Origin: Giesbergeria sp.
Lineage (GTDB): Bacteria > Pseudomonadota > Gammaproteobacteria > Burkholderiales > Burkholderiaceae_C
Direction of reading: 5' to 3'
Assembly (NCBI RefSeq): GCF_028686475.1
Contig: NZ_JAQUCA010000018.1
Span: forward strand, 1-64,000
Length of the DNA: 64,000 nucleotides
The stretch's first letter is position 1. Each line of letters opens with the position of its first letter. The position numbers were made by a program, and so were the translations under genes. This document shows positions 6,439 to 19,365 of this stretch, piece after piece. The notes under the pieces are model-generated. The model saw only the letters and a program-made list of their open reading frames with translations. It did not search any database and was not told the origin of the DNA.

Positions 6439-7449
6439 ATGAAGCCCCCAGCCCCAGCCCGTATGCCCCTGCTCTTGGCCCCGATGGAGGGCTTGCTTGA
6501 TTTTGTGCTGCGCGATGTGCTGACCCGCGTGGGTGGTGTGGACCGCTGTGTCTCGGAATTTATCCGCATCAGCGATACTTTGTTGCCCGATAAGGTATTT
6601 TTGCGCTATCTGCCCGAATTGCAAAATGGCAGCCGCACCCTGGCTGGCGTGCCCGTGCGGGCGCAATTGCTCGGCTCCGACCCGGTGTGCATGGCAGAAA
6701 ATGCCGCGCGTCTGGCCGCCCTGAACCCCGAAGGCATTGATTTGAATTTTGGTTGCCCGGCCAAGGTGGTCAACCGGCACGGGGGCGGTGCGGCCCTGCT
6801 GCAAAACCCCGAACACATCGCCCGGCTGGTGGCTGCGGTACGCCGCGCTGTACCAGCACATCTGCCTGTGTCGGCCAAAATGCGCTTGGGCTACCACGAT
6901 GCCAGCTTGGCGCGTGAATGCGCCCAAGCAATGGCCGACAACGGAGCCTGCGAGATTGTGGTTCATGCCCGCACCAAGCAAGACGGCTACCGCCCTCCCG
7001 CCTACTGGGAGCAAATTCCAGCGATTCAAGCCGCAGTATCGGTGCCCATAGTGGCCAACGGTGAAATCTGGACGGTACAAGATGCCCAGCGCTGCCGCAG
7101 CGTCTCGGGTTGCAATGCCCTGATGCTGGGGCGCGGCATGGTGGCCAATCCGGGGCTGGCGCTGGCCATTCGGGCCGCCGATGCTGCCGCCGCCGATACC
7201 CTCCTCGCCAGTGGGCAAGACAGCCTGCCTGCGCCGGTGCAATGGCCCGAGCTTTTGCCCCACATCGCCCACTTTTGGCAATTGGTGTGTACCAATTTAG
7301 AGCCACGCCAGCGCGCTGGCCGCCTCAAGCAATGGCTTAATTTGTTGCGTCGGCGCTTTCCCGAAGCCGAAATGGCCTACCAAGAAATTCGCCCCCTGAC
7401 TGACCAACGCACCATCAGTGCTTGGGTGCAGGCACAGCAATCGGTTTAA
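6439..7449 (+). CDS. dusC: tRNA-dihydrouridine synthase, DusC type
   Basis: This 336-residue FMN enzyme reduces uridine to dihydrouridine in tRNA. The Dus barrel begins with LLLAPMEGLLDFVLRDVLT. The catalytic cysteine is in NFGCPAKVVNRHGGGAALL, and the FMN phosphate-binding part is near VPIVANGEIW and NALMLGRGM. The FGCPAKVVNRHGGG pattern and length fit DusC better than DusA or DusB. I chose the ATG at 6439; the ATG at 6428 is out of frame and meets a stop at once. A small zinc-ribbon gene follows 43 bp later. Confidence 0.88.
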   Translation: MKPPAPARMPLLLAPMEGLLDFVLRDVLTRVGGVDRCVSEFIRISDTLLPDKVFLRYLPELQNGSRTLAGVPVRAQLLGSDPVCMAENAARLAALNPEGIDLNFGCPAKVVNRHGGGAALLQNPEHIARLVAAVRRAVPAHLPVSAKMRLGYHDASLARECAQAMADNGACEIVVHARTKQDGYRPPAYWEQIPAIQAAVSVPIVANGEIWTVQDAQRCRSVSGCNALMLGRGMVANPGLALAIRAADAAAADTLLASGQDSLPAPVQWPELLPHIAHFWQLVCTNLEPRQRAGRLKQWLNLLRRRFPEAEMAYQEIRPLTDQRTISAWVQAQQSV

Positions 7450-7492
7450 CTTGGCACAAAATACCCTTCAGCACCCCAGCCAGTCCTTCGCT

Positions 7493-7693
7493 ATGCCTAT
7501 TCGCCCACCTCCGCTTCACATCCGTTGTCCACAATGCACTTGGCAGCAGCATTGGCAGCCTAGCTCTGATGCCCTGATGGCCCTGCCCCCGAAAATCTGT
7601 CCGCGTTGTGGTCATACACATTTGGAAGCCCGCCCTGCCTCTGGCGCATCAGCCTTGTGGGAGCAATTGCCGCAGTGGCTTACACGCCCCTGA
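7493..7693 (+). CDS. Small zinc-ribbon protein
   Basis: The 66-residue protein has two CxxC knuckles, RCPQC and ICPRCGH, about 26 residues apart. This fits a single zinc ribbon, followed by a short tail ending QWLTRP. The ATG at 7493 gives a compact protein; the frame stays open upstream into the dus stop region. No catalytic domain is present, so it may be an adaptor or nucleic-acid or protein-binding module. It lies 56 bp upstream of the RavA-like ATPase on the same strand and may be co-transcribed with it. I do not recognise a named family. Confidence 0.6.
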   Translation: MPIRPPPLHIRCPQCTWQQHWQPSSDALMALPPKICPRCGHTHLEARPASGASALWEQLPQWLTRP

Positions 7694-7749: not shown

Positions 7750-8976
7750 ATGAACCACCCTTTGAAGCAAAAACTCATCCGCCTGTTGGACTCCCTCAAC
7801 CACGGCTTGGTAGAACGTGAACCCGCCATTAAGGCAGCTTTGCTGACCGTGCTGGCCGGGGAAAACCTGCTGCTGGTTGGGCCACCGGGCACTGCCAAGA
7901 GCCTGATTGCGCGGCGCATGGCCGAGAGTCTGCACCACAGCGACGCAACAGCGGGCTATTTTGAATACCTGCTCACCAAGTTTTCGACCCCGGAAGAAAT
8001 CTTCGGGCCACTGTCCATCAGCGAACTCAAGGCCGACCGCTTCCGGCGCAACACGGCGGGTTATTTGCCCTCGGTACGCTTGGCATTTCTGGATGAGATT
8101 TTCAAGGCCAGCTCCTCGATTTTGAATGCGCTGCTGACCATTTTGAACGAGCGCATCTACCACAACGGCACCGAAGCCCAGCCGGTACCGTTGCAGGCGC
8201 TGATCGCCGCTTCCAACGAACTGCCCACCGGACAAGAAGAGCTGGAGGCCCTCTACGACCGATTTTTGCTACGCAGCTTTGTCGATTACGTCAGTGAAGA
8301 CGGGCTGCCACAGTTGCTGCGTAAACCGGGGCCAGCGCCAGCGCTGGAACCACTCACCGGGGCCGATATGGAGGCGGTGCGCCAAGCCGCCGCCAACGTG
8401 AACTTGCCACCGGAAATCATCACGGCCCTGCAACGCATTTGGGCCGGGCACAAGCAGCTGTTCAAAGAAGACCGGCGCGAGAACCTGTCCGACCGCCGCC
8501 TGAAAAAGGCCGTAGGCTTGCTGTGTGTCTCGGCGGCCACCAATGGGCGTGACGCGGTGGATTTGTCCGATCTGTTGCTGCTCAAAGATTGCCTGTGGAA
8601 CCACCCGGACAATGCACCCAAGGTTAGAGATTTGATCCTGAATGTTTTATTACCCGAGAAAATTTTCTTTGGAGATGGTGTTATCCAAATCCAAGCTCCA
8701 GATATCGGTGGCTTCAATGATGTGACCGTGATCGAGTTGCTGGTCAGGCCGGGCGATACCATCCAAGTCGGGCAAAGCCTGATCACTATCGAATGCGACA
8801 AAGCCGCCCTAGAGATTCCCTCCAGCCATGCGGGTATGCTGAAGGAACTGACAGTCGCACTAGGTGACAAGGTCTCAGAAGGTTCTGTAATCGCGAAGAT
8901 AGCGACTAAGCACATAAAGGAAATGAGAGACAAGATCAAGCTCTCCGAACAAGTGTGTGCCAACTTCTGGCTCTAA
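7750..8976 (+). CDS. RavA-like MoxR AAA+ ATPase fused to a C-terminal lipoyl domain
   Basis: The 408-residue protein starts at the ATG at 7750 (MNHPLKQ). Residues 1-300 are a MoxR/RavA AAA+ module: Walker A GPPGTAKS at 44-51, Walker B LAFLDEI at 111-117, sensor 1 AASNEL near 153-158, and the arginine-finger region LYDRFLLR at 168-175. Residues 311-384 are an E2-type lipoyl (biotinyl/lipoyl) domain with DIGGFNDVTVIELLVRPGD, the attachment motif ECDKAALEIPSS (lysine 351) and LGDKVSEGS. MoxR ATPases remodel proteins with a VWA partner, here encoded 12 bp downstream. RavA normally ends in a different (LARA) domain. The lipoyl part has clearly lower GC than its flanks, which suggests a recombined tail. 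The frame is continuous with no stop or frameshift at the joint. Confidence 0.85.
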   Translation: MNHPLKQKLIRLLDSLNHGLVEREPAIKAALLTVLAGENLLLVGPPGTAKSLIARRMAESLHHSDATAGYFEYLLTKFSTPEEIFGPLSISELKADRFRRNTAGYLPSVRLAFLDEIFKASSSILNALLTILNERIYHNGTEAQPVPLQALIAASNELPTGQEELEALYDRFLLRSFVDYVSEDGLPQLLRKPGPAPALEPLTGADMEAVRQAAANVNLPPEIITALQRIWAGHKQLFKEDRRENLSDRRLKKAVGLLCVSAATNGRDAVDLSDLLLLKDCLWNHPDNAPKVRDLILNVLLPEKIFFGDGVIQIQAPDIGGFNDVTVIELLVRPGDTIQVGQSLITIECDKAALEIPSSHAGMLKELTVALGDKVSEGSVIAKIATKHIKEMRDKIKLSEQVCANFWL

Positions 8977-8988
8977 AGGCGGCCTGCT

Positions 8989-10635
8989 ATGCTTCCTTTT
9001 CTCGGGCCGCTGCTGGGCGGCTGGGGGCGGCTCACCGCCGCCCTCGGCATCAAGCCGCTCAAATACTTTATCGACAGCGTGTTCCGCGACAAGGTGCGCC
9101 CGATGCCTGGCAGCGTGCTGTATTGCGACCTGTGGCTGGCGGTAGAGCACTCTGGCATTTACCTCGGCGACGGCCAAATCTCCAACATCGTGGTCGATGG
9201 GCTGGCCGAAAGCACCGTGCAAGCCTGTGGCCCGGAAAGTTTTACTTCCAAAAGCAGCATGGGGCGCAAAATTTACGTCTCTTGCAATAGCCAAGGGGCA
9301 GTCGGCCATTCTGCGGTGGCACACGGCGCGGCCCGCCATGTGGGCGAACGCGCTTTTTATGGGTTGGTGATTAAAAACTGCCACCAGTTTTCTACCCGCT
9401 GCGTTAACTATGCGGGCAACGATGTAGAGCTGTCACTGCTCGATCGTGCCCTGGCCATGCTGCCTGATGGCACCTTTGAGCCTACCATCACGGCGTTGAA
9501 AGCGGCTGCCCGTGACAAACTCGGGGCCACCAAATGGCGGCTGTGGGATTGGCAGAACGAGGATGCCGCCGCACCCCGCGAAGAACCCCCGCCCGAACCC
9601 GATTGGCAAGCCCATGCCGACCATTTCTGCCAGCTGGACTTGGATGCCGACAGCATCGCCGACATCCGCGCTCAACTTGCCGCCACCCAAACTTACGAAG
9701 CCGAGATTGCCGACGAGAACATTCCGGCCCCCATTCGCCAGAAACTGGGGCAATTCCGCCAAACCTTGAGTGACATTTCGCAAAAATACGAAGAGGTCAA
9801 AGGTTTTTTGGCCGCCTGCCCCGGCGCACGCTTTTCTTATGCCGAACTCAAGGCAATGGGTGAGGATTTTTCGGCGTTGGCGCTGCAGTTGCAGGGCAAT
9901 CCCCGCATCCAAGAACTGGCACGCAAAATGGGGCGCAACTATATTTCCGAGGAGCGCAAAAAACAGACCCGAGTACCGCAAGCCAGCCGCAGTGAAGTCC
10001 ACGGCACGCACCGCAGCGACGATTTGATGCGCGTCTTGCCCAGTGAACTGCTTAATCTGGAAGATGAAACGCTGGAAACCGTGTTCTACGCCCGACTGCT
10101 GGAAAAAAACCTGCTGTCCTACGAGTTGCAAGGGGTGACATTCCGCAACGGCGAAGAGATAGAACGCCAGCAGCAACGTACCGGCCCAGTGGTAGCCTGT
10201 TTGGATACTTCAGGCAGTATGCAGGGCGCGCCCCTGCTCAAAGCCAAGGCGCTGTTGCTGGCCATTGCCAATATCTTGCAGCAAGAAAATCGCTCGCTGC
10301 ATGTGCTGCTGTTTGGGGCTTCGGGCGAGGTGCGCGAGTTTTCAATGGAGCAGCGCAACGATGCTGTGGGGCTGCTCCAGTTTCTGCAACAAGGCTATGG
10401 CGGTGGCACCGATTTTGAGACCCCGTTGCACCGCGCGTTGGCTCTCATTGCGGAGCAAAAAAGCTACCAAAAAGCCGATGTGCTGATGCTGAGTGATGGC
10501 GATTGCCAGCTCTCAGCCGATTTTGCCGCTACTCTTGCCGTGCAAAAGGCCCATTTGGATTGCTCGGTTTATTCGGTGCTGTGCGCTGGTACGCGGGTGG
10601 CAGATAACTTCAGCGATGAAGTGGTGGTTTTATAA
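8989..10635 (+). CDS. ViaA-like VWA protein with an N-terminal LRAT/NlpC-P60-like domain
   Basis: The 548-residue protein has three parts. Residues 37-142 resemble the LRAT branch of NlpC/P60 papain-like folds: EHSGIYLGDG at 53-62 with candidate catalytic H54, and KNCHQFSTRC at 129-138 with candidate C131. Residues 205-395 are a helical ViaA-like middle (LMRVLPSELLNLEDE, then VFYARLLEKNLLSYE). Residues 400-548 are a VWA domain with an intact MIDAS (DTSGS at 406-410, T474 in GGGTDF, D503 in LSDGD). ViaA is the VWA partner of RavA. E. coli ViaA has no LRAT part, so this looks like an added effector or lipid-acting domain. The spacing from the ATPase gene is 12 bp, with an AAAGGCGG ribosome site across it. 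Confidence 0.82.
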   Translation: MLPFLGPLLGGWGRLTAALGIKPLKYFIDSVFRDKVRPMPGSVLYCDLWLAVEHSGIYLGDGQISNIVVDGLAESTVQACGPESFTSKSSMGRKIYVSCNSQGAVGHSAVAHGAARHVGERAFYGLVIKNCHQFSTRCVNYAGNDVELSLLDRALAMLPDGTFEPTITALKAAARDKLGATKWRLWDWQNEDAAAPREEPPPEPDWQAHADHFCQLDLDADSIADIRAQLAATQTYEAEIADENIPAPIRQKLGQFRQTLSDISQKYEEVKGFLAACPGARFSYAELKAMGEDFSALALQLQGNPRIQELARKMGRNYISEERKKQTRVPQASRSEVHGTHRSDDLMRVLPSELLNLEDETLETVFYARLLEKNLLSYELQGVTFRNGEEIERQQQRTGPVVACLDTSGSMQGAPLLKAKALLLAIANILQQENRSLHVLLFGASGEVREFSMEQRNDAVGLLQFLQQGYGGGTDFETPLHRALALIAEQKSYQKADVLMLSDGDCQLSADFAATLAVQKAHLDCSVYSVLCAGTRVADNFSDEVVVL

Positions 10636-14249: not shown

Positions 14250-15545
14250 TTAGGCCACGTCGCGGCGGGGTGCGCCAGTGAACAATTGGCGTGGACGGCC
14301 AATCTTGTACTCAGGGTCGCTGATCATTTCGTTCAGTTGGGCAATCCAACCGACGGTACGGGCCAGGGCAAAAATACCAGTGAACAGGTTGACCGGAATA
14401 CCGATGGCGCGTTGCACGATACCGGAGTAGAAGTCCACGTTCGGGTAGAGCTTGCGGCTGACGAAATAGTCGTCTTCCAGAGCGATTTTTTCCAGTGCCT
14501 TGGCCAGCTTGAACAGCGGGTCGTTTTGCAGGCCCAGTTCGGCCAGCACTTCGTCGCAGGTTTCTTGCATCAGCTTGGCGCGTGGGTCGTAGTTCTTATA
14601 GACGCGGTGGCCAAAACCCATCAGCTTGACGCCGGAGTTCTTGTCCTTGACCTTTTCCATGAACTCGCCCACCTTGTCGATGCCGCCTTGGCGCTGGATG
14701 TCTTCTAGCATGTTCAGGCAGGCTTCGTTGGCACCGCCGTGGGCAGGGCCCCACAGGCAAGCCACACCTGCGGAGATAGCAGCAAACGGGTTGGTGCCCG
14801 AAGAACCGCACAGGCGCACGGTAGAAGTGGAAGCGTTTTGCTCGTGGTCGGCGTGCAAAATGAAGATGCGGTCCATCGCACGTTCAATCACGGGGTTGAC
14901 CTTGTACTCTTCGCAAGGGGTACCGAACATCATCCGCAGGAAGTTGCCAGCGTAGCTCAGGTTGTTTTGTGGGTACATGTAAGGCTCGCCCTTACCGTAC
15001 TTGTAAGCCATTGCCACCAGCGTGGGCATCTTGGCGATCAGGCGAATTGCAGCCACATCGCGGTGTTCGGGGTTGTTGATGTCGGTGCTATCGTGGTAGA
15101 AGGCCGACATAGCGCCTACCAAGCCCGTCAACACCGCCATCGGGTGGGCATCACGGCGGAAGCCACGCAGGAAGAACTGCATTTGCTCGTTCACCATAGT
15201 GTGGTCTAGCACCAACTTATGGAAGTCAGAGCGCTGGGGCGCTGTGGGCAGTTCACCCTTGAGCAGCAGGTAACAGGTGTCGAGGTAATCGCACTTGGTG
15301 GCCAGTTGTTCAATCGGGTAGCCACGGTAGAGCAATTCACCCTTGTCACCATCAATGTAGGTGATGGCCGATTGGCAGGAGGCGGTGGACAGGAAACCGG
15401 GGTCGTAGGTGAACATACCGGTTTGGCCATACAGCTTGCGGATGTCAATGACATCTGGGCCAATATTGCCTTGGTACACAGGAAGTTCCACGCTGGGGCT
15501 GCCATTGGAGAACGACAGGGTGGCTTTGTTGTCAGCTAACTTCAT
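14250..15545 (-). CDS. gltA: Citrate synthase
   Basis: The 431-residue type II citrate synthase condenses oxaloacetate and acetyl-CoA. The start [12 protein letters not shown] (ATG at 15545) has an AAGGAA ribosome site; a longer open frame upstream overlaps sdhE and is not family-like. Visible motifs are [12 protein letters not shown], the active-site region [10 protein letters not shown], and [15 protein letters not shown]. It is the last gene of the sdhC-sdhD-sdhA-sdhB-sdhE-gltA cluster, 61 bp after sdhE, and is followed by a strong terminator. Confidence 0.96.
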
Positions 15546-15606
15546 TGTAATTTCCTTGGGTAGGTTGCCGATGGTTAGGGCTGGGGAGAGGGGCTGCGTG
15601 CTTTGT

Positions 15607-15933
15607 CTATCCGTGCGCTGGCGCTGTTGCACCACTGCCACCTTGGCGCATCATGCCTAGCACTTCACGCACTTCTTCGGTATTCAACGCGCCTTCTGGC
15701 TCACGCCGCCGTAGCAGCAAATCCAGCAGGTCGTTGTCTGCCAAATCCATTAACGCATTCATGCCGTCGGCATGGCGTTGGTGTAATTGGGAAGCAAAGC
15801 GGGTGAAAAACCGTTCGATGAACAGGTCGTTCTCCACCATGCCACGCCGACTGCGCCAGCGCAACATGCTTACCGCCCGCTCGTCCAGCAGTGGCATGTC
15901 TGCCACCATATCGGAGGATGGAATTTCACCCAT
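15607..15933 (-). CDS. sdhE: Succinate dehydrogenase assembly factor SdhE
   Basis: The 108-residue protein contains the [14 protein letters not shown] motif that marks the SdhE/YgfY (SdhAF2) family, followed by [17 protein letters not shown]. SdhE promotes covalent FAD attachment to SdhA. It sits 15 bp after sdhB in the same operon, as in many betaproteobacteria. Both ends extend slightly beyond the core fold. Confidence 0.88.
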
Positions 15934-15948
15934 AATTTTGTCAGTGCC

Positions 15949-16656
15949 TTAGATAGCGCGACGCACCATCAGCTCTTTGATTTTGCCAATGGCGCGCGTG
16001 GGGTTGAGACCCTTGGGGCACACATCGACGCAGTTCATGATGGTGTGGCAGCGGAACAGACGGTACGGGTCTTCCAAGTTGTCGAGGCGCGCAGCGGTTT
16101 CTTCGTCGCGGCTGTCGGCAATGAAGCGGTAGGCTTGCAGCAGGCCAGCGGGGCCGACGAACTTGTCGGGGTTCCACCAGAAGCTGGGGCAGCTGGTCGA
16201 GCAGCTGGCGCACAAAATGCACTCGTACAGGCCGTTGAGTTCTTCGCGCTCTTCGGGCGATTGCAAACGCTCTTTAGTCGGCGAGGTCAGGCTATCGTTT
16301 TGCAGATACGGCTTAATCGAGTTGTACTGCTTGAAGAACTGCGTCATGTCCACAATCAAATCGCGGATGACGGGCAGGCCGGGCAGGGGCTTGAGCACGA
16401 TTTCACCGGGCAAGGTGTTCATGTTGGTCAGGCAGGCCAAACCGTTCTTGCCATTGATGTTCATGGCATCGGATCCGCACACGCCTTCGCGGCAGGAGCG
16501 GCGGAAGGAGATGGTCGGGTCTTGTTGCTTGAGCTTGACCAGCGCATCCAGCAGCATGCGTTCGTGGCCGTCCAGCTCAATCTGCACGGTTTGCATGTAG
16601 GGCTTGGCATCCTTATCAGGATCGTAGCGGTAGATTTTGAAAGTACGTTTTGCCAT
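15949..16656 (-). CDS. sdhB: Succinate dehydrogenase iron-sulfur subunit
   Basis: The 235-residue SdhB carries electrons from SdhA to quinone. The 2Fe-2S cysteines are in SCREGVCGSDAMNING, and the 4Fe-4S and 3Fe-4S clusters are in CILCASCSTSCPSFW and CHTIMNCVDVCPKGLNP. All expected cysteines are present. It lies 23 bp after sdhA and before sdhE. Confidence 0.96.
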   Translation of the reverse strand: MAKRTFKIYRYDPDKDAKPYMQTVQIELDGHERMLLDALVKLKQQDPTISFRRSCREGVCGSDAMNINGKNGLACLTNMNTLPGEIVLKPLPGLPVIRDLIVDMTQFFKQYNSIKPYLQNDSLTSPTKERLQSPEEREELNGLYECILCASCSTSCPSFWWNPDKFVGPAGLLQAYRFIADSRDEETAARLDNLEDPYRLFRCHTIMNCVDVCPKGLNPTRAIGKIKELMVRRAI

Positions 16657-16679
16657 TGTTTTACTCCAGTGCGCTGCGA

Positions 16680-18485
16680 TCAGAAGGTACGGACTTTAGG
16701 TGGCACGCTGTCCACGGTCAGGGGTTTGAGGTTCACCGGCTTGTAGGTCAGGCTGTTGTTAGCACTGTGCCACAGGGTGTGCTTCATCCATTCCTTGTCG
16801 TTGCGGCCCAGCGGGAACTCGGCGTGGTCAGCTGGATGCTCGTAGTCATAGACGGTGTGCGCGCCACGGCATTCTTTGCGGGCAGCGGCGGAAGTCATGG
16901 TAGCTTGGGCTACTTCGATCAGGTTGTCCACTTCCAGCGCTTCCATGCGGGCAGTGTTCCAGACCTTGGACTTGTCTTGCAGCGTCACCGAGGAGACTTG
17001 GCTACGCAAGCCGTTGATTTTGACCACGCCTTCGTCCATGCTTTTTTGCGTGCGGAACACGCCAGCGTGCTGCTGCATCGAAGTACGGATGTCGTTGGCC
17101 AGCGTTTGGGCGTAGGTGCCGCTCTTGGACTCTTGCAGTTGGTTCAGGCGCGTCAGGGTGCGCTCAGAACCATTGGCGGGCACCGGCTGGTGGTCGCCAT
17201 GTTCTTTGACAAACTGCACAATGTGTTTGCCTGCCGATTTGCCAAACACCAGCAAATCGAGCAGCGAGTTGGTGCCCAAACGGTTGGCACCGTGTACCGA
17301 GACGCAAGAGCATTCGCCCACGGCATACAGGCCGTTGACCACATGGTTTTGCACGCCATCGTGTACCACCACTTGGCCATTGATGTTGGTTGGGATACCG
17401 CCCATTTGGTAGTGGATGGTGGGCACGACGGGAATCGGCTCTTTGGTGATATCCACGTTGGCAAAGTTGTGGCCAATTTCTTCCACCGAGGGCAGACGCT
17501 TGCGGATGGTGTCGGCACCGAGGTGGTCCAACTTCATCAGGATGTAGTCCTTGTTGGGGCCACAGCCACGGCCTTCCTTGATTTCTTGGTCCATCGAGCG
17601 CGAAACGAAGTCGCGCGGGGCCAAGTCTTTCAGGGTGGGCGCATAGCGCTCCATGAAGCGCTCGCCATTGCTGTTGAGCAAAATCGCGCCTTCGCCACGG
17701 CAGCCTTCGGTCAGCAGCACACCCGCACCAGCCACGCCGGTGGGGTGGAACTGCCAGAATTCCATGTCTTGCAGCGGAATGCCAGCACGGGCCGCCATGC
17801 CCAAACCGTCGCCGGTGTTGATGAAGGCGTTGGTCGAAGCGGCAAAAATACGGCCTGCGCCACCAGTGGCCAGCAGCACGGCTTTGGCGTGCAACTCGTA
17901 CAGGTCGCCGGTTTCCAGCTCTAGCGCCGTGACACCGACCACATCGCCTTGGCTGTTGCGAATCAAGTCCAGCGCCATCCACTCGACAAAGAAGTTGGTT
18001 TTGGCCTTGACGTTTTGCTGGTACAACGTGTGCAGCATGGCGTGGCCGGTACGGTCGGCCGCAGCGCAAGCGCGTTGCACGGGTTTTTCGCCGTAGTTGG
18101 CAGTGTGGCCACCAAACGGACGCTGGTAAATCGTGCCATCGGGGTTGCGGTCAAACGGCATACCGAAGTGTTCCAACTCAATCACGACGTTGGGGGCTTC
18201 GCGGCACATGAATTCAATCGCGTCTTGGTCGCCGAGCCAGTCAGAGCCTTTGATGGTGTCGTAGAAGTGGTAGTGCCAGTTGTCCTCGCTCATGTTGCCC
18301 AGCGAGGCGGACACGCCACCTTGCGCGGCCACGGTGTGGCTACGGGTGGGGAACACTTTGGACAGCGAGGCCACGTTCAGGCCAGCGCGCGAGAGTTCGA
18401 GGGCGGCGCGCATACCGGAGCCGCCGGCCCCGACAATAACCACGTCAAATTTGCGCTTAGTGATGTTAGCGTTGGTGTAGCTCAT
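16680..18485 (-). CDS. sdhA: Succinate dehydrogenase flavoprotein subunit
   Basis: The 601-residue SdhA oxidises succinate to fumarate at the inner face of the cytoplasmic membrane. The FAD fold has VIVGAGGSG (17-25), and H50 in TRSHTVAAQGG is the covalent flavin site. Active-site blocks include HPTGVAGAGVLLTEGCRGEG and HGANRLGTNSLLDL. Length is normal. It follows sdhD by 22 bp. Confidence 0.96.
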   Translation of the reverse strand: MSYTNANITKRKFDVVIVGAGGSGMRAALELSRAGLNVASLSKVFPTRSHTVAAQGGVSASLGNMSEDNWHYHFYDTIKGSDWLGDQDAIEFMCREAPNVVIELEHFGMPFDRNPDGTIYQRPFGGHTANYGEKPVQRACAAADRTGHAMLHTLYQQNVKAKTNFFVEWMALDLIRNSQGDVVGVTALELETGDLYELHAKAVLLATGGAGRIFAASTNAFINTGDGLGMAARAGIPLQDMEFWQFHPTGVAGAGVLLTEGCRGEGAILLNSNGERFMERYAPTLKDLAPRDFVSRSMDQEIKEGRGCGPNKDYILMKLDHLGADTIRKRLPSVEEIGHNFANVDITKEPIPVVPTIHYQMGGIPTNINGQVVVHDGVQNHVVNGLYAVGECSCVSVHGANRLGTNSLLDLLVFGKSAGKHIVQFVKEHGDHQPVPANGSERTLTRLNQLQESKSGTYAQTLANDIRTSMQQHAGVFRTQKSMDEGVVKINGLRSQVSSVTLQDKSKVWNTARMEALEVDNLIEVAQATMTSAAARKECRGAHTVYDYEHPADHAEFPLGRNDKEWMKHTLWHSANNSLTYKPVNLKPLTVDSVPPKVRTF

Positions 18486-18507
18486 TATTTGCCTTCAGTC
18501 GCGGGAA

Positions 18508-18873
18508 TCAGAGACGCCACAAAACTTGGAAACCCCAGCCAGCACAGCCGACCAGCCAGACGAGGGTGAAAACCTGCAATACCAGGCGCAGCCCAACCGG
18601 TTGGACATAGTCCATCCAGATGTCGCGCACGCCTACCCAGACGTGCCAAATCAGGGCCACAATGACCGAGAAGGTGACGACCTTCATCCATTGGCTAGAG
18701 AAAATGCCTGCCCAAGCAGCGTAACCGATGGGGCCTTTGGTGAAAATCAGTTGTGCAAGCACAACCACAGTAAACAGCGCCATCAGAGCCGCTGTAACAC
18801 GCTGGCTGAGCCAGTCGCGCAGACCATAGTGGGCACCGACGACGATGCGCTTGGAGCCGTAATTGACGGACAT
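18508..18873 (-). CDS. sdhD: Succinate dehydrogenase membrane anchor SdhD
   Basis: The 121-residue protein has three hydrophobic helices (around LMALFTVVVLAQLIF, VVTFSVIVALIWHVWVGV and LRLVLQVFTLVWLVG). The HVWVGVRDIWMDYV region carries the usual heme/quinone-site residues. It anchors SdhAB with SdhC in the membrane and lies 57 bp downstream of sdhC. Confidence 0.9.
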   Translation of the reverse strand: MSVNYGSKRIVVGAHYGLRDWLSQRVTAALMALFTVVVLAQLIFTKGPIGYAAWAGIFSSQWMKVVTFSVIVALIWHVWVGVRDIWMDYVQPVGLRLVLQVFTLVWLVGCAGWGFQVLWRL

Positions 18874-18930
18874 GGTGGAATTCCTTTTGAATGAGGGGTG
18901 GACTGGGATGCAGTGCTGGCCACAGGGCCA

Positions 18931-19365
18931 TCAGTACAGGCCAAACAGTTTGGCACCCAGCACCACAGTCAGGGCAATGCTGATAACCAAGGTAACGACA
19001 GCGGTGGATTTGCCCGACTCTTTAGTGACCGAGTCGTGGTTCATGTCCATACGCAGGTGGCGCACACCAGCGCAGAAGTGGTGCAGGTAGGCCCAAATGA
19101 GGGCCAACACCACCAACTTGACAAACCAGCCGGGCACAAAGCCCAGCCCATCGCTAAAGGCAGCCGTGAAACTCGCAAAAGAGATTTCGGACGACAGCGA
19201 CATGTCGAACATCCAGAGAATGAACGGCAGCAACAAGAACATGATGACACCACTGGCACGGTGCAGGATGGAAACCCATGCAGCCGGGGCCATGCGATAA
19301 GTCGTCAGGTCCTTGAAGGCGTTGATGTTGCGGAATTCAGGCCGCTTTTTGGCTAGCTCGGTCAT
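18931..19365 (-). CDS. sdhC: Succinate dehydrogenase cytochrome b556 subunit SdhC
   Basis: The 144-residue protein has three membrane helices. The SdhC signature runs from RPEFRNINAF through ILHRASGVIMFLLLP to HHFCAGVRHLRMD, which holds the heme-ligand histidine. It is the first gene of the sdh operon. A 142-bp gap separates it from the GntR gene upstream on the same strand. I did not find a convincing promoter hexamer pair there. Confidence 0.92.
   Translation of the reverse strand: MTELAKKRPEFRNINAFKDLTTYRMAPAAWVSILHRASGVIMFLLLPFILWMFDMSLSSEISFASFTAAFSDGLGFVPGWFVKLVVLALIWAYLHHFCAGVRHLRMDMNHDSVTKESGKSTAVVTLVISIALTVVLGAKLFGLY

Follow-up and report, generated by a model that had tools for sequence, protein, structure and literature searches.

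The two-gene locus

We analysed a window of 64,000 nucleotides from Giesbergeria sp. (assembly GCF_028686475.1, contig NZ_JAQUCA010000018.1, positions 1-64,000, to which the coordinates of the locus refer), which encodes a RavA-type MoxR AAA+ ATPase and a von Willebrand factor A (VWA) protein. The ATPase gene (7750-8976; product P0001, 408 amino acids, aa) and the VWA gene (8989-10635; product P0002, 548 aa) both lie on the + strand, as do all their features given below, and are separated by 12 bp. An earlier note on this DNA had described such a closely spaced pair, a MoxR ATPase and a VWA protein with a metal-ion-dependent adhesion site (MIDAS), which our searches bear out, and had viewed it as RavA-ViaA with two extra domains. 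The latter view had to be given up: the pair is a member of a rare, patchy clade with a fixed LRAT-VWA partner and an exchangeable slot on the ATPase, not E. coli RavA-ViaA plus two extras.

P0001 was assigned from Pfam, NCBIfam and PDB matches. Its AAA+ core (bpMoxR, aa 8-191, 7771-8322) scores 194.7 bits in Pfam against a cut-off of 27, and its lid matches AAA_lid_8 (aa 233-296, 8446-8637; Pfam, 67.1 bits). In the PDB, the AAA+ part (aa 3-290) is matched best by E. coli RavA chains, with E about 8e-66, while the NCBIfam RavA equivalog NF010054 reaches 259.8 bits against a cut-off of 681, over aa 3-305. The P-loop reads GPPGTAKS, and the consensus of the relatives is GPPGTGKS. Beyond the stretch covered by the RavA model P0001 holds only a lipoyl domain and a tail, with no LARA domain in a triple-helical bundle.

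The lipoyl domain (aa 313-384, 8686-8901) is of the pyruvate dehydrogenase (PDH) type by Pfam and by the lipoyl tree, and was captured from such a source. The match to Biotin_lipoyl (PF00364; 67.2 bits against a cut-off of 22.1, E 1.1e-18) and the lysine K351 (codon 8800-8802), which sits in the DKA hairpin, confirm the E2-type domain with an intact lysine that had been proposed from the sequence. K351 is the predicted lipoyl lysine, and P0001 is probably lipoylated there. A PDB match of the lipoyl region near the N-terminus of a CbbQ chain (6l1q) was set aside as a probable expression tag. The conserved C-terminal tail, LSEQVCANFWL (aa 398-408, 8941-8973), was recognised in the alignment of the clade's ATPases. 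It is unlikely that an assembly chimaera produced the fusion, because the lipoyl part lies in frame between the AAA+ core of the clade and the clade's own C-terminal tail, and because the clade's partner gene stands 12 bp downstream.

The partner P0002 was resolved by Pfam, a partner alignment and a predicted model into an LRAT-like domain (about aa 20-190, 9046-9558), a helical middle region (about aa 205-390, 9601-10158) and a VWA domain with an intact MIDAS (aa 395-548, 10171-10632; VWA_2, 39.8 bits in Pfam). The middle region was placed, with the NCBIfam ViaA match and the model, within the ViaA-like stretch of aa 231-504, over which P0002 scores 140.7 bits against ViaA NF008230 (cut-off 500). 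The reading as a RavA-ViaA-like pair therefore stands for the RavA-type core and the ViaA-like partner and fails for RavA-ViaA proper, both proteins being below the cut-offs and LARA being absent. In PDB fold searches with the partner model the match lists were filled by the VWA domain. The MIDAS residues D406, S408, S410, T474 and D503 are invariant in all 32 aligned partners.

LRAT belongs to the NlpC/P60 superfamily. The LRAT-like domain, delimited by alignment and profile searches, scores 21.4 bits in P0002 (PF04970), which is under the curated Pfam cut-off of 24.3; the same Pfam family is matched by 32/32 aligned partners at E <= 0.1 (best 5e-6). With a profile built over this region from 31 clade members and one stand-alone LRAT protein of a Photobacterium plasmid, a PDB search up to E 10 returned nine sequences, all nine PLAAT/LRAT, the best with E 0.0048 (0.064 for its best single stretch alone). 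H54 (9148-9150) and C131 (9379-9381), the candidate residues named in the earlier note, are invariant together with H132 in 32/32 aligned partners, so that the domain assignment is upheld by profiles and residues alike. N66 (9184-9186) is an invariant asparagine in the 32 VWA-fused partners, at the position of the second catalytic histidine of PLAAT. The LRAT domain is thus constant in the partner family, whereas the lipoyl domain is only an occasional module on the ATPase. The LRAT-VWA fusion is a candidate enzymatic effector on a MoxR partner.

A clade with an exchangeable slot

Searched with the ATPase, 84,980 species genomes yielded 427 relatives, of which the best 80 loci were kept. Among these 80, 34 ATPases (L037-L068, L071 and L090) form the near clade, 35 with the window. 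An LRAT-bearing partner lies within the fetched DNA for 32 of the 34 relatives; of the other two, L064 is cut by a contig end and L045 has none within its 12.9 kb. L084, which is cut inside the AAA+ core, is perhaps a further member and was left uncounted. The ATPase alignment holds 32 of the 35 proteins and leaves out L038 (incomplete at an assembly gap), L064 (incomplete at the contig end) and L090 (close to L046). The partner alignment holds the window and 31 of the 32 relatives, without L090, and a further one (A4) was made without L038 and L090. L090 itself has the LRAT partner, the tail and the beta-helix motif, and gave no lipoyl match.

The comparison reveals a slot between ring and tail, at the position where RavA has LARA. 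A fast-diverging beta-helix occupies it in 32/35 clade ATPases, and it is empty in two. In the window it is filled by the lipoyl domain alone, an architecture found in exactly this form in only one of the 35, and the ATPase L049 of Undibacterium seohonense carries a beta-helix and a lipoyl domain. The tail that follows (QQxxANIWL-like) is common to all 32 aligned clade ATPases, with N405 and W407 invariant; none of the other RavA-type ATPases compared was seen to end in it. A fold search with the model of a clade relative's ATPase returned RavA entries as best matches. What is constant, then, is the core, the tail and the LRAT-middle-VWA partner; what varies is the module, and host-type lipoyl domains have been captured into it separately. 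This suggests that the slot after the RavA ring may stay empty or hold LARA, a beta-helix or a lipoyl domain. Among the papers listed in searches of an open-access library we found no description of this clade, of an LRAT-VWA fusion or of a lipoyl-bearing MoxR protein.

By eye, small toxin-antitoxin-like genes lie between the ATPase and LRAT-VWA genes at three loci (L042 8367-9103, L065 4088-4664 and L071 8430-9048), and a transposase at a fourth (L043 4378-4920).

Origin of the lipoyl domains and spread of the operon

The fusion extends beyond this assembly among the relatives scanned, to Undibacterium L049 and, in a different RavA clade, to Acinetobacter L101. The L049 lipoyl domain groups with those of Undibacterium's own PDH E2 and of an adjacent protein with two lipoyl domains (support 99/98, 83% identity), a protein that received no NCBIfam name at E 1e-100. 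The window domain is nearest the E2/E3 domains of its own genus, with 70% identity at best. One origin of the two was rejected with p-AU 0.0103 in an approximately unbiased (AU) test that was made after the first lipoyl tree was known. Based on the lipoyl trees and this test, the window and Undibacterium domains were captured separately; the trees of the partner and of the AAA+ core do not settle the position of the window and Undibacterium.

At the DNA level, the window domain is 78% identical over 156 bp to the lipoyl segment of its own genome's E3, and the fused segment gave no phage match. For the window domain, pairwise dN/dS comes to about 0.10-0.13 with the own E3 domain and 0.14-0.20 with the own E2 domains; for the L049 domain it is about 0.02-0.10 with the domains of its PDH cluster. 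In these comparisons dS is high, and by NG86 not computable in two of them; the values include the source branches.

A third capture was found in Acinetobacter baumannii (L101), where a SucB-type lipoyl domain (49 bits) sits on the ATPase of another RavA clade and is 73% identical to the lipoyl domain of that genome's own SucB. The partner of this ATPase is an ordinary ViaA-like protein. The version in A. lwoffii (L082) is degenerate: it lacks the lysine region and gets no lipoyl match in Pfam. Three of the four lipoyl copies retain the lysine. Such loci occur in 2/175 genomes of the genus. Similar captures elsewhere suggest that the lipoyl swap is useful rather than accidental.

The Acinetobacter operon (L101 2790-9469, L082 3790-9305) encodes a dynamin-like GTPase, which matches the LeoBC model with 38.8 bits, the RavA-type ATPase, a 200-aa protein and the ViaA-like VWA protein, and in L101 a HEPN-like gene, below the Pfam cut-off, stands after it. 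It looks like a conflict-type operon. On plasmid pAZKH of Azoarcus sp. KH32C (L207 6390-13566), a RavA-ViaA pair directly follows odhA-odhB on the same strand.

Strong partner matches (E <= 1e-60) are sparse: around the window they occur in 4/399 genomes of the family, 4/399 of the order and 1/369 of the class, the window's genome included, and around Undibacterium in 1/43 genomes of the genus and 3/392 of the family, that of L049 included. Further genome searches re-found the same loci under other numbers (eight pairs checked), and therefore add counts, not new sequences. In 25 congeners no RavA-type match over the AAA+ core appears among the matches listed, down to near 2e-8; many of the 25 show PDH lipoyl domains among the same matches.

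Directly upstream of the ATPase gene we noticed a small zinc-ribbon-like open reading frame (ORF; 7418-7693). At 21 dus loci of congeners the operon is absent within about 1.5 kb downstream (less at contig ends). Since rnk and the zinc-ribbon ORF are not near dus in these congeners either, they offer no clean empty site. The own genome carries a truncated second VWA copy (L122 6004-6438, - strand, contig C46; 73% identity to aa 404-548), which lies about 120 bases from a contig end and adjoins a tyrS-like gene; no second AAA+ copy is among the matches listed for this genome.

Flanking genes vary between loci. No Pfam family occurs in more than 4 of the 114 flanking ORFs from 31 loci, which were picked by a length rule (130 aa or longer) and some of which may be spurious. 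They include some restriction, Abi, integrase and transposase matches, counts that stand without a control set and for which we claim no enrichment. In the window, genes that by eye encode citrate synthase and succinate dehydrogenase lie a few kb downstream (14250-19365); this closeness to the operon is probably chance, because the relatives' flanks are not conserved.

On mobile elements, no full LRAT-VWA protein was found in the viral contigs searched with P0002, nor any at 80% query coverage in plasmids (42 records, partial matches) or phages (9 records); a search of viral contigs with P0004 gave no match. Stand-alone LRAT genes were found on two viral contigs (L205 2895-3434, L206 4791-5441) and on the Photobacterium plasmid (L129 8001-8480), there between IS66 elements. 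The stand-alone proteins (3/3 read, two by eye) have a histidine where the VWA-fused ones have the asparagine.

Possible functions and comparison with known systems

Our leading account, which we hold tentatively and which falls just short of being probable, is that the pair is an accessory MoxR-VWA remodelling machine of RavA-ViaA-like build with an exchangeable target-recognition module, whose lipoyl version docks on lipoyl-binding proteins. The steps beyond the architecture we infer as follows. By analogy with RavA, the AAA+ protein would form a hexamer. The clade tail may be the counterpart of the C-terminal portion of the triple-helical bundle in RavA and, as the predicted model suggests, could hold the ATPase and the VWA protein together with the middle region of the partner. 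The module between ring and tail would select the target, in the way that LARA selects LdcI in E. coli, and a lipoyl module would dock the machine on E1/E3 components, on lipoate-handling enzymes or on a foreign protein attacking them. ATP hydrolysis and the VWA protein would then act on the docked target, and the LRAT-like Cys-His domain might perform or gate an acyl transfer or a hydrolysis, perhaps at the membrane. A tie to respiratory complexes or to lipoate metabolism, as weighed in the earlier note, is likewise an inference.

Several points weigh against this account. Lipoyl domains are rare in the clade (2/35 ATPases), and that of the window sits on a long branch with weak placement (support 86/56). 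The docking role of the tail is drawn from its conservation and from a model whose predicted template modelling score (pTM) is 0.55, and lipoylation, binding and hexamers of P0001 are all predictions. In A. lwoffii a lipoyl group cannot be needed, since the lysine region is lost. The odhAB linkage in Azoarcus is one case, and the ATPase there has no lipoyl domain.

It is also possible, although on balance unlikely, that the pair is an integrated decoy in a conflict system, in which the machine would guard against invaders, the lipoyl domain would bait foreign proteins that attack or hijack the host's lipoylated enzymes, the beta-helix would be a fast-changing sensor and the LRAT domain the effector. 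According to PMC7159879, MoxR-vWA conflict systems acquire modules and decoys have been proposed for them, and here the spread is patchy in all the genome sets counted above, the slot module diverges fast, the Acinetobacter lipoyl-RavA stands beside the dynamin-like GTPase and the HEPN-like gene, and restriction, Abi, integrase or transposase genes occur among some flanks. On the other hand, these flank matches lack a control set, the window's own neighbours look housekeeping by eye, and no PADLOC model matches the pair (at E <= 1e-5, 5 proteins gave 0 families). The lysine is moreover kept in most of the lipoyl copies, whereas PMC7159879 describes its modules as typically inactive. A broader form of this idea strikes us as doubtful: RavA-type MoxR-VWA machines would be modular guards that repeatedly capture the lipoyl domains of the host's own 2-oxoacid dehydrogenases as decoys or baits, sense an attack on central carbon metabolism and trigger an LRAT-type membrane or acyl effector, a possible counterpart in bacteria of the integrated decoys that plant immune receptors carry.

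An improbable alternative is that the pair serves the PDH or 2-oxoglutarate dehydrogenase (OGDH) complex of its own host as a chaperone dedicated to assembly or repair. It would fit the capture of lipoyl domains of the host's own type, the odhAB-ravA-viaA linkage in Azoarcus and the service of other MoxR-VWA pairs (NorQD, RavA-ViaA) in enzyme maturation. The congeners speak against it: with no RavA-type match among those listed in 25 genomes, many of which show PDH lipoyl domains, the operon is no general requirement for PDH or OGDH.

Very improbable is a swinging arm, in which lipoate on K351 would carry acyl groups or electrons to the LRAT site or a redox partner as part of catalysis. LRAT enzymes form acyl-thioester intermediates, and the domain and its DKA lysine are intact with low dN/dS, in keeping with such a role. 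However, 30 of the relatives' 31 aligned partners pair with lipoyl-less ATPases and yet have invariant H54 and C131, and therefore the LRAT chemistry needs no lipoyl arm in general. We give just as little weight to an accidental, functionless fusion in a decaying operon, with the beta-helix swapped for a piece of a PDH gene by illegitimate recombination: it would account for the single occurrence of the architecture, the truncated VWA copy and the lack of such an operon among the matches listed in 25 congeners, but not for the intact frame, tail and partner, the low dN/dS and the separate uptake of a lipoyl domain in Undibacterium and of one with a different source gene in Acinetobacter.

With such a slot, swapping modules offers a direct test of the targets of RavA-ViaA-type machines. 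That lipoyl domains were captured separately, from PDH-type as well as OGDH-type sources, points to lipoyl-dependent complexes as a target or battleground.

Compared with E. coli RavA-ViaA, the AAA+ core is matched, the partner matches ViaA over aa 231-504 and the genes are adjacent. The window ATPase differs in lacking LARA, instead of which the clade has a beta-helix or lipoyl domain, followed by a tail of its own; in P0002 the LRAT domain replaces the helical N-terminal region of ViaA, and the equivalog cut-offs for RavA and ViaA are missed by a wide margin. In E. coli, following PMC10585395 and PMC9489729, LARA docks RavA on LdcI and has been reported to bind lipids, which another group did not see, and the middle domain of ViaA stimulates RavA, as suggested via the triple-helical bundle.

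As Kaur et al. 2020 (PMC7159879) put it, MoxR-vWA conflict systems take modules from other cellular subsystems, with a proposed decoy role. Our pair resembles these ternary systems in joining MoxR, VWA and captured modules, and the GXXXTAKS variant that they quote covers its P-loop, GPPGTAKS; P0001 also matches bpMoxR, which is not discriminating because RavA-type outgroups match it too. Unlike the MoxR-vWA-beta-propeller systems, P0002 has no beta-propeller and it is the ATPase that bears the captured module; among the window's neighbours, read by eye, we noticed no VMAP, iSTAND or FtsH gene. LRAT and lipoyl are not mentioned by Kaur et al., and NlpC once.

Mycobacterial MoxR1 by ripA/ripB likewise links a MoxR ATPase to an NlpC/P60-superfamily protein; according to PMC12067865 these are separate secreted peptidoglycan peptidases, whereas here an LRAT-like domain is fused to VWA. 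P0002 shares the histidine in EHxG and the cysteine in NCHxF with PLAAT/LRAT acyltransferases, and the W-x-x-W domain end with stand-alone LRAT proteins (Photobacterium plasmid, viral contigs), and differs from both in its fusion to VWA and in the asparagine N66. P0001 has a full lipoyl domain with the DKA lysine, up to 70% identical to congeneric domains, as do PDH E2/E3, except that it is placed on a MoxR ATPase without E2/E3 catalytic domains. MoxR-VWA machines are already known as a kind; what is new is one whose partner bears an LRAT domain and whose exchangeable module has more than once taken up a lipoyl domain.

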